From Acidimicrobiaceae bacterium (GTDB lineage: Bacteria; Actinomycetota; Acidimicrobiia; Acidimicrobiales; RAAP-2), in contig PMLV01000090.1 in assembly GCA_003160635.1 (NCBI GenBank), positions 35,698-99,697 of the forward strand: a stretch of DNA of 64,000 bases. Reading direction: 5' to 3'. Positions 15,309 to 18,245 of this stretch are shown here, one piece after another. How positions within the stretch are numbered: position 1 is the stretch's first letter; each line of letters starts with the position of its first letter. The notes under the pieces are model-generated. The model searched no databases, had not been told where the DNA came from, and saw nothing but the letters and a program-made list of their open reading frames with translations. The position numbers and the translations under genes were made by a program.

Positions 15309-15597
15309 TACAATGGACGCGCGACCGATCCGTGGTCCGTGACGCCCCCGGTACGGGGCACGAGTGGAAGGAGGTGTGGCCATGCGTAGGGACGAACCTC
15401 CCAGTAGCACTACCGGCACACCTCGCCACATCTGCGCCGGCTGAGCTGCTGGTTTCTCCAGCCTGCCCGGTCGTCACCGCAGGTGTCGGGATAGAGAAGG
15501 TGCTGGTCTCAGCCTCTTTCGGTCGCCTCCACATCGCAGGCGCCGCTCTGTTCATTCCGACCTGACCGCCTTGTGGCGCCGCACAGGAGGTAGCACC
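15309..15597 (+). promoter_or_regulatory. Long structured 5' leader of the MgtE-domain/Nramp operon
   Basis: TACAAT at 15309-15314 is a good -10, although no -35 is evident. It gives a leader of about 275 nt before the TTG start at 15598. It contains a strong Shine-Dalgarno (AAGGAGGTG, 15368-15376) for a 20-codon ORF. GAGGTGTG (15371-15378) is complementary to CACACCTC (15417-15424) and would sequester that SD. There is a hairpin GCTGG/CCAGC (15448-15462), a long-range pair GGCTGAG (15439) with CTCAGCC (15508), and a GGCGCC/GGCGCC pair (15539, 15575) just before the AGGAGG of the first gene. I could not match it to the M-box, ydaO or yybP consensus. Confidence 0.55.
15382..15444 (+). CDS. Upstream ORF / candidate regulatory leader peptide (20 aa)
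   Basis: ATG 15382 lies seven bases after a near-perfect AGGAGG, the best ribosome site seen in the neighbourhood. The peptide is MRRDEPPSSTTGTPRHICAG followed by TGA. Codons 4-7 encode Asp-Glu-Pro-Pro. Acidic-plus-proline nascent chains at the N-terminus are known to destabilise ribosomes at low Mg2+ (as in the enterobacterial MgtL leader). The peptide's codons overlap both the anti-SD strand and the start of the GGCTGAG stem, so translating it would reshape the leader. Function as a Mg2+-responsive attenuator is inference; it is too short for the ORF track. Confidence 0.5.
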   Translation: MRRDEPPSSTTGTPRHICAG

Positions 15598-17007
15598 TTG
15601 GCCTCAACGCCGCCGGCAGGATCACCTGCTCGTTCCACGCATTCCCTACCCCGCCGACGGGAGACCCCCGATCGCCCGGCGCACCAGCGCCGCCGCCGCA
15701 CCCGCCGCATTCTGGCGTCCGAGGGCGTCTTCGACTCCATCGTCTCCCTGGCGGGCATCCTTGGTCGGCCGGTCACGAATCAGACCGGTCAGGAGATCGG
15801 CCGACTCGACGACATCGTGGCCCGTTGGTCAGATGGACAGACCTACCCGCCCGTGACCGGGCTCGTCATACGGGTGGGGCGCCGTTTGGCCTTCGTCCCC
15901 GCGTCGGCCATCGATCGCATCGCCCACGCCGAGGTGCTGCTGCGCTCGGCCCGACTCGACCTGCGCGACGTCGTACGCCGCCCCGGCGAGGTGCTCCTGG
16001 CCAAAGACGTCCTCGACCATCAGCTGGTCGACGTCGACGGCGTGCAGGTCATTCGGGCCGCCGACCTCTACCTGGCCGAGGTGCTCGGGCGCATACGCCT
16101 CGTCGGCGCCGACGTGTCGACGTCGACGCTGCTGCGCCGGCTGGGGCCACGCCGTTGGCGCCCGTCGCCCACACCCGATCGCGTCATCGACTGGGCCGCC
16201 ATCCAGCCCTTCGGCGAGTCCACCGATTCCGTGGACGGGGCCACCCAGGTCCGCCTCCGGACCACCCACGAGGGACTGCACCGCTTGCGCCCCGGCGAGT
16301 TGGCCGACCTGTTGGAGGACCTTCGCCGGGACGAGCGCAGGGAGCTGCTGGCGGCGCTGAGCCCCGACGAAGCGGCCGACGCGCTCGAAGAGATGCAGGC
16401 TGACGACCTCGAGCAGCTCCTGCGGGAAGCCGATCCCGACGAGGCGGCACGACTTCTCGTGGCCATGGAGCCCGACGAAGCGGTCGATGCCCTCCGCGAC
16501 CTTCCGGCGGCGACGCGGGGCGAGTTGTTGCGACGCATGGCGCCCAGCGCGGCAGCCGCGTTGCGCGAGCTGCTCGGATATCCCGAGGACGAGGCGGGCG
16601 GCATCATGACGTCCACGCTCGTCGTGGCCATCACCGACGACACCGTGACCGAGGTGGTCGATCAACTGGCCGATGCCCGCGGTCACGACGTCGATCTCGA
16701 CGCGGTGGCCGTGGTGAACAAGGAGGGATCGTTCGTCGGGGACGTCACGCTGCTCAAGATCCTCTTGACCATGCAGACCTCACCCGATTCGCGCATCTCC
16801 TCCCTCCTGGTCGATGAAGATGTCGTCACGGTGCGGCCGCGCGCGTCGGCCGACGAGGTGGCCCGGCAGCTGGTCGAGGCCCGCAGGCTCTCACTGGTCG
16901 TCGTCGACGACGATGGGCGACCCATGGGGCGGATCCTGGCCGACGACGTGCTCGACGCGCTCGTACCCACGAAGGGTCGGTTCCATTTTCCCAAGCTTCT
17001 GACGTGA
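15598..17007 (+). CDS. Soluble PRC-barrel / MgtE_N / CBS-domain protein (magnesium-transport regulator)
   Basis: Start TTG 15598, seven bases after AGGAGG; the ORF-track start at 15571 lies before that ribosome site. 469 residues. The N-terminal ~40 residues are basic and disordered. Residues ~45-120 look like a PRC-barrel (GRPVTNQTGQEIGRLDDIV). Residues ~215-330 are an MgtE_N superhelix of acidic repeats (LADLLEDL, LSPDEAADALEEM, MEPDEAVDALRDL), and residues ~335-460 are a CBS pair (DEAGGIMTSTLVVAI, VTVRPRASADEVARQLVEA). No membrane segments follow, unlike true MgtE channels. Its stop overlaps the GTG start of the Nramp gene (GTGA), so it is probably the Mg2+-sensing partner of that transporter. 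Confidence 0.85.
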   Translation: MASTPPAGSPARSTHSLPRRRETPDRPAHQRRRRTRRILASEGVFDSIVSLAGILGRPVTNQTGQEIGRLDDIVARWSDGQTYPPVTGLVIRVGRRLAFVPASAIDRIAHAEVLLRSARLDLRDVVRRPGEVLLAKDVLDHQLVDVDGVQVIRAADLYLAEVLGRIRLVGADVSTSTLLRRLGPRRWRPSPTPDRVIDWAAIQPFGESTDSVDGATQVRLRTTHEGLHRLRPGELADLLEDLRRDERRELLAALSPDEAADALEEMQADDLEQLLREADPDEAARLLVAMEPDEAVDALRDLPAATRGELLRRMAPSAAAALRELLGYPEDEAGGIMTSTLVVAITDDTVTEVVDQLADARGHDVDLDAVAVVNKEGSFVGDVTLLKILLTMQTSPDSRISSLLVDEDVVTVRPRASADEVARQLVEARRLSLVVVDDDGRPMGRILADDVLDALVPTKGRFHFPKLLT

Positions 17008-18245
17008 AGGCCCCGATTCACCGGAGAGGCCTCGTCTACCTCGCCGCCGCCGGGCCCGGACTGATCGCCGCCGCCGCCGGCAACGATGCGGGTGGCGTCG
17101 TCACCTACTCCTCGGCCGGCTCGGACTTCATCTACCGCACGCTCTTTCTGATGGTGCTGATCACCATCGCCTATGTCGTCGTGCAGGAGATGGTGGCGCG
17201 GCTGGCCGTGTACACCGGTAAGGGCTTGGCCGCACTCATCCGCGAGGAGTTCCCGCTGCGCATGACGGCCTTCGCCGTGACGGCCTTCGCCATCGCCAAC
17301 ATCGGGCTCATGGTCACCGAATTCGGCGGCATCGCGACGGCGTTCGACCTCTTCGGCGTCTCGCGCTATCTCTCGGTGCCCATCGCCGCGCTGGCCATCT
17401 GGAGCCTGGTCCTGTTCGGGTCGTACCGCTACGCCGAGCGGGTCTTCCTGTTGTTGACACTCGTCTTCGTGGCCTACCCGATCGCCGCTGTGCTCGGCCA
17501 TCCCAATTGGCACCATGTCGCCAGCAACACCTTGTGGCCCCACTTCATTGCCAACAAGTCCTTCCTCCTGCTCGCAGTGGCACTCATCGGGACCACCATC
17601 ACCCCCTACATCCAGTTGTACGAGGCCGGTGCCGTGGTGGACAAGGGTGTCAAGCCCGAGGACTACCGGTTCCAACGGGTCGACGCCATCGTCGGGGCGG
17701 TCCTGGCTGCGTTCGTCGCCATGTCGATCATCGTGGCCACCGGCGCCACCATTGGAGGGTCGGGTCCGCTGACCTCGGCCGCACACGCCGCCCATGCACT
17801 ACGCCCGGTGGCGGGTCCAGCCGCGGAGGTGTTGTTCGGACTCGGGCTCCTGGGCGCCTCAGCCCTGGCGGCGGCCGTGGTGCCACTTTCCACGTCCTAT
17901 GCGGTGGCCGAGGCGGTCGGAGTGGAACGGTCCGTCTCCTCCAGCTTTCGCCAGGCTCCGCTCTTCCTGGGGCTCTTCACGGCCCAGATCCTCCTCGGCG
18001 CGGCCGTGGTGCTGGTGCCGGGCAACCTGATCACCTTGATTTTGAACACGCAGGTCCTCGAAGGCGTAATCACGCCGATGACCCTGGTGCTGATCCTGGT
18101 GCTCGCCAACCGGCGTTCCCTGCTGGGCCCGGCCGCGAACGGGCCATGGGCCCGCTGGCTGGGTGGGGTGTCGATTCTCTCGGTCGCCGCCGTGGCCTCG
18201 GTCTTCGTGGTCCTTACGGTCCTGGGGTGGTTCGGCCTCAATTGA
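17004..18245 (+). CDS. Nramp-related divalent metal transporter (Mg-type metal site)
   Basis: A protein of 413 residues with about eleven membrane segments and a LeuT-like Nramp fold. The helix-1 motif, normally DPGN, reads NDAGG around residues 27-31: the Asp is kept (D28), but Pro and Asn are replaced. The helix-6 motif, normally MPHN, reads TPYI at residues 200-203, so the soft-metal ligand Met is Thr. These changes suit a hard cation such as Mg2+, as described for Nramp-related magnesium transporters. GTG start overlaps the stop of the MgtE_N/CBS gene. Mn2+ transport cannot be excluded from sequence alone. Confidence 0.85.
   Translation: MKAPIHRRGLVYLAAAGPGLIAAAAGNDAGGVVTYSSAGSDFIYRTLFLMVLITIAYVVVQEMVARLAVYTGKGLAALIREEFPLRMTAFAVTAFAIANIGLMVTEFGGIATAFDLFGVSRYLSVPIAALAIWSLVLFGSYRYAERVFLLLTLVFVAYPIAAVLGHPNWHHVASNTLWPHFIANKSFLLLAVALIGTTITPYIQLYEAGAVVDKGVKPEDYRFQRVDAIVGAVLAAFVAMSIIVATGATIGGSGPLTSAAHAAHALRPVAGPAAEVLFGLGLLGASALAAAVVPLSTSYAVAEAVGVERSVSSSFRQAPLFLGLFTAQILLGAAVVLVPGNLITLILNTQVLEGVITPMTLVLILVLANRRSLLGPAANGPWARWLGGVSILSVAAVASVFVVLTVLGWFGLN

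Follow-up and report, generated by a model that had tools for sequence, protein, structure and literature searches.

A candidate leader peptide upstream of magnesium-transporter genes in Actinomycetota

A short upstream ORF precedes a MgtE_N/Nramp gene pair

The window (the whole 64,000-nt stretch of Acidimicrobiaceae DNA that was analysed) carries on its forward strand two genes for predicted transport proteins. The first (15598-17007; TTG start) encodes a protein with MgtE_N and CBS domains (Pfam PF03448 and PF00571) and no membrane part. The second (17004-18245; GTG start), joined to the first by a GTGA overlap, encodes a predicted Nramp-related magnesium transporter (NRMT; PF01566) that matches the solved EleNRMT. 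Ahead of both lies a 20-codon upstream ORF (uORF) at 15382-15444, identified by reading the frames and kept in relatives, with the peptide MRRDEPPSSTTGTPRHICAG and a stop codon. DEPP occupies its codons 4-7, and its conserved core, codons 5-8 (15394-15405), reads GAA CCT CCC AGT (E-P-P-S). The uORF is preceded by GGAAGGAGGTGTGGCC, its Shine-Dalgarno (SD) lies at 15367-15378 (the GGAAGGAGGTGTGG region), and nearly all relatives have a near-perfect SD (AGGAGGTG) in this place. A candidate -10 hexamer, TACAAT (15309-15314), was picked by eye and is tentative, and a TAnnnT hexamer was likewise seen by eye at a comparable position in most relatives. A consensus scan of the window leader found no full sigma-70 promoter and no intrinsic terminator. 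The remainder of the leader (15406-15597) is not conserved, contains more C (36%) than G (29%), lacks a terminator-like site, and is presumed to be the site of attenuation. A preliminary description of this DNA had read correctly the ORF, its DEPP codons, the SD ahead of it, and the MgtE_N/CBS gene overlapping a carrier gene; the structured leader with alternative stems that it also reported is not confirmed by the folding analysis below.

The carrier is nearer to NRMT than to MntH-type Nramp proteins in sequence. Among solved structures it is closest to EleNRMT (7qia; E 5e-95, vs 5e-17 for MntH chains), whose GNDAGG and IGTTIAP align with its own GNDAGG and IGTTITP. It has the NRMT signature: Asp and Gly in helix 1, Thr in helix 6, and no soft-ligand Met, the position being Thr here and Ala in EleNRMT. 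Solved cytosolic domains of MgtE match the partner protein. The preliminary description had regarded this split two-protein system as novel, yet Shin et al. (2014) had already reported that nrmT genes adjoin a gene encoding the cytoplasmic N-domain of MgtE (PMC4072509). Both structural genes in the window are of that described kind, and the pair is not new. What differs is the leader: the described clostridial NrmT operons have M-box riboswitches, whereas the window operon has the leader peptide in that place.

The uORF is conserved as a coding sequence

Ortholog searches and inspection of upstream DNA found the same short ORF ahead of the operon in Acidimicrobiia, Pseudonocardia, Mycolicibacterium and other actinobacteria. 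The layout is a near-perfect SD, a start codon, usually three codons, and then E/Q/D-P-P-S. The element was present at 94 of the 110 MgtE_N/Nramp loci fetched (a few of them fetched twice), giving 89 distinct leaders, and was not found at the other 16. In the family to which the window belongs, the core pattern matched 24 times; 12 of these matches have an SD and a start codon, and all 12 lie ahead of a MgtE_N gene; the other 12 look like chance. Streptomyces, Kitasatospora and Streptacidiphilus have MDSSPGHS in place of the PPS form, ahead of the same operon. Intermediate cores (EPHS, IPHS, DPCS and DAPS, at L087, L083, L089 and L165), all with AGT, appear to link the PPS, GHS and PCS subtypes.

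The key serine is codon 8 in 77 of the 89 distinct leaders. With no filter on the codon, it reads AGT in 87 leaders, GGT in one and TCT in one, whereas AGT makes up 3.2% of the 1961 serine codons in the downstream genes, a baseline pooled over all MgtE_N genes rather than set per genome. The two PPS-type leaders in which a GGT glycine replaces the AGT serine (L203 and L086) keep the -GT. The first proline is CCY in all 55 PPS leaders, although 48.6% of the prolines in the downstream genes are encoded by CCG; in the GHS and PCS subtypes the proline codon is mostly CCG. Elsewhere in the core the codons vary synonymously (CCC/CCT, CCN, GGC/GGT, CAT/CAC) while the residues are fixed, and the uORF peptide is therefore under selection. 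The spacing from start to core is in whole codons. Past the motif the peptide is free to vary, so that only about five residues are conserved. The alignment of the leaders leaves out the rows L075 and L085. Taken at the level of aligned sequences, this comparison establishes the uORF, its conservation as coding sequence and a constraint on the codon near position 8.

The preliminary description had proposed an acidic and proline-rich leader peptide ahead of a magnesium-transporter operon, to be checked by conservation of its core in relatives. The core is indeed kept in many genera, which supports the leader peptide. The acidic residue does not hold as an essential feature: some leaders have Q for E, and those of Streptomycetaceae read P-G-H-S or P-C-S. 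The constant feature of the leaders compared is instead the serine codon AGT near codon 8. Of that earlier interpretation as a whole, the conserved leader peptide is supported, and the novelty of the split system, the stems and the essential acidic residue are not.

One close relative (L058) has lost the Nramp gene by deletion, with MgtE_N (77%) and the next gene (80%) still in place. The uORF is gone together with the Nramp gene, a single case.

The same leader occurs ahead of CorA and MgtE genes

We also searched genomes with a gene-independent pattern (SD, start, gap and core). This pattern requires AGT, and the resulting sets were hence kept outside the AGT statistic. Across 397 genomes of the phylum it gave 10 matches (none in the control), nine of them ahead of MgtE_N/Nramp, MgtE, CorA or Nramp genes. 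Besides MgtE_N/Nramp, these were full-length MgtE in two genomes, CorA in two genomes and the second Nramp of the window's genome; one match was chance. Across 326 Actinomycetes genomes there were 23 matches and one for the control, and 20 of the 23 lay ahead of CorA (16) or MgtE (4). The matches L174, L183, L198 and L201 were dropped as chance, being without a valid uORF or inside another coding sequence. A short core pattern without SD and start came out near chance level.

For CorA, an unfiltered, protein-led search showed that 9 of 21 close orthologs have the leader, with peptides including MSQPPSTN, MRSEPPGHTARL and MSPGHSPRLSW. CorA paralogs of Streptomyces have a third form, MD[PR]S[RH]PCST. 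The PCS-form pattern matched 54 times in 91 Streptomycetaceae genomes; 30 of these loci were fetched, 27 of which contain the uORF in frame, and CorA is downstream in all 27. For the P-G-H-S form, 17 in-frame places have downstream MgtE_N (14), Nramp without MgtE_N (2) or an unrelated gene (1). Two of 10 sampled MgtE orthologs carry the leader, so the rate at which it occurs differs by transporter family. The association of the uORF with MgtE_N/Nramp, MgtE and CorA genes, together with its co-loss in L058, is thus established in the genomes compared, and the leader appears to mark a regulon that spans transporter families rather than a single operon.

The window's genome contains a further MgtE_N/PRC/CBS gene and, behind it, a second Nramp gene (579 aa) at G000:C167:85900-91300 (L176). 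There an EPPS uORF (VKSEPPSTWRPP...) lies between the two, ahead of the Nramp gene and not of the pair. Elsewhere a valid MDCGSSPGHS leader stands ahead of a glyoxalase/VOC-like gene (L263; G1100:C51:112438-112483), and is possibly an orphan left by rearrangement.

Proposed mechanism and signal

None of the 89 leaders has a T run of at least five, and C exceeds G past the motif in 97% of leaders, vs 26% just upstream of the uORF, with a much smaller C excess against same-length regions before genes without a uORF (p = 0.02). The lack of T runs and the excess of C over G past the motif are expected for Rho and not for intrinsic termination. Intrinsic attenuation was rejected on the lack of T runs and on the terminator scan. 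Frameshifting at CCC CCN was considered and dropped, as a look by hand found no consistent downstream stop or frame.

We consider it highly probable that the uORF is a cis-acting leader peptide of the magnesium-transporter genes. The whole chain, from ribosome slowing or drop-off at low Mg2+ through Rho attenuation to transporter control, is in our judgement the probable one, held with moderate confidence. The strong SD would load ribosomes onto the uORF, where after about seven residues they would meet a difficult step made up of P-P (or G-H, P-C) and the serine codon AGU after it. With enough Mg2+, the ribosome would complete the uORF and expose the C-rich, terminator-free RNA downstream, and transcription would end early, probably through Rho. 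At low Mg2+, the ribosome would slow or drop off at codons 5-8, the leader would be protected or refolded, and the transporter would be made. In this scheme the stall or drop-off at the motif, the role of Rho as effector and the direction of the response are all predictions.

Two models described for mgtL bear on the difficult step. In one, early acidic and proline codons destabilise ribosomes at low Mg2+; in the other, CC[C/U] codons slow when m1G37 is short. Early proline and acidic codons are found as E/Q/D-P-P in the main subtype, and the P-G-H-S and P-C-S cores have proline but no acidic-proline core, so that the first model fits the PPS subtype only. P-G-H-S and P-C-S are not known as destabilising motifs. 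The second, TrmD/m1G37 model was rejected as a general explanation: it fits the main subtype (CCY in 55 of 55) and not the mostly CCG GHS and PCS subtypes. As these two subtypes fit neither model, the common step may, speculatively, be the decoding of AGU behind a short chain.

Mg2+ is the ion common to the MgtE, CorA and NRMT families, and because of these families we infer that it is the signal. A different signal, such as Mn2+ or another ion, general translation stress, or the supply or modification of tRNA (Ser-AGU, Pro), could act on the same regulatory leader peptide, and we regard this as unlikely though worth weighing. Transport by NRMT and CorA proteins can extend to other divalent ions. 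A related Acidobacterium NrmT chiefly restored Mn2+ uptake (PMC4072509). The whiB7/wblC uORFs of actinomycetes read translation stress from antibiotics, and a single near-invariant codon suggests an event at the level of tRNA. The shared ion of the three families argues instead for Mg2+, and genes for amino-acid biosynthesis or resistance were not found downstream of the leaders.

Folding of the leader RNA

The 293-nt window leader folds at -124.1 kcal/mol, vs -122.3 +/- 5.1 for shuffles (z -0.36), and the 90 nt past the motif in the 89 leaders have the same mean z (-0.36 vs shuffles). This does not support the alternative stems of the preliminary description, and no conserved fold emerged. 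Rfam covariance models gave no family for the window leader even to E 10, apart from spurious miRNA matches, and an M-box (ykoK) or other known riboswitch was rejected on this ground.

It is improbable that the element acts as RNA, as a riboswitch or an RNA-protein site whose letters only resemble a peptide, with pairing between SD and core setting translation of the uORF or gene. Such pairing can be drawn in the window, as had been proposed earlier: GGAGGT is complementary to ACCTCC in the P-P codons (z -1.3), although SD-to-leader pairing is only mildly favoured across leaders (mean z -0.75), and the CCC codon in 44 of 55 PPS leaders mismatches GGAGGT, which rejects pairing as the general cause of the two prolines. 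Streptomyces corA leaders may form a hairpin that sequesters the SD of the uORF, for which covariation is uninformative because its paired positions hardly vary. Predicted folds place the conserved AGT in a loop for one subtype and a stem for another, which speaks against an RNA element, as do folds no better than shuffles, the Rfam result, third-position changes that leave the residues fixed, and start-to-core spacing in whole codons. The strong SD, and re-initiation proposed at actinobacterial leader ORFs (PMC4833913), would suit a trans-acting micropeptide or a uORF that merely boosts translation of the operon by re-initiation, but either is very improbable given the few conserved residues, the free C-terminal half, and a median of 83 nt from the uORF stop to the predicted gene start, longer than the 10-11 nt peak reported in that paper (PMC4833913).

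Relation to known leader peptides

By analogy, the best reading is that the cis-acting actinobacterial leader peptide works like mgtL and corL, although unrelated to them in sequence. Like mgtL of mgtA in Salmonella and E. coli, it is a short uORF ahead of a Mg2+ transporter, in its main subtype proline/acidic with a CC[C/U] first proline, and it would share with mgtL a critical step in its first codons and Rho attenuation. The cores differ (EPDP in mgtL vs [E/Q/D]-PPS, PGHS and PCS), the near-fixed AGT after the core distinguishes the actinobacterial leaders from mgtL, and mgtA is absent among the linked genes, which span three transporter families. The corL uORF likewise lies in the corA leader in Salmonella and E. 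coli and is tied to Mg2+ control and Rho; no motif shared with it was seen in the actinobacterial corA leaders, which are PPS, PGHS or PCS with AGT. Mycobacterial M-box leaders (pe20/Rv1805A; M. abscessus mgtE) also combine a tie to Mg2+, translated uORFs and Rho termination (PMC12810186, PMC4974804), but they contain the M-box aptamer that is absent from the window leader, and their uORF2 peptide has been described as mycobacterium-specific.

It is quite possible, although we put it forward tentatively, that Actinomycetota have a widespread ribosome-based Mg2+ sensor of their own, with E/Q/D-PPS, SPGHS and RPCST subtypes, whose codon-specific sensing step would be the decoding of AGU around codon 8, when the tunnel holds a chain of seven residues. 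Operons for MgtE, CorA and NRMT would share such a sensor, which would have arisen independently of mgtL and corL.

Leader peptides of Mg2+ transporters are known as a kind (mgtL, corL); what appears to be new is this family of leaders, the constraint on its codon and its occurrence before several transporter families. No description of the family was found in the open-access papers searched. If the reading holds, Actinomycetota, the phylum to which antibiotic producers and mycobacteria belong, would have a magnesium regulon read by the ribosome and not by a riboswitch or two-component system. The serine codon (AGT, not AGC) hardly varies across many genera and several transporter families, which makes a Mg2+ limit on a particular elongation step directly testable. 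The signature could also serve to predict the regulated copies of CorA, MgtE and NRMT in actinobacteria.

Close MgtE_N orthologs also occur in two metagenome-assembled genomes labelled as Acidobacteria (L134 and L104), with an EPPS leader in L134, and either mis-binning or transfer between phyla may account for this placement.
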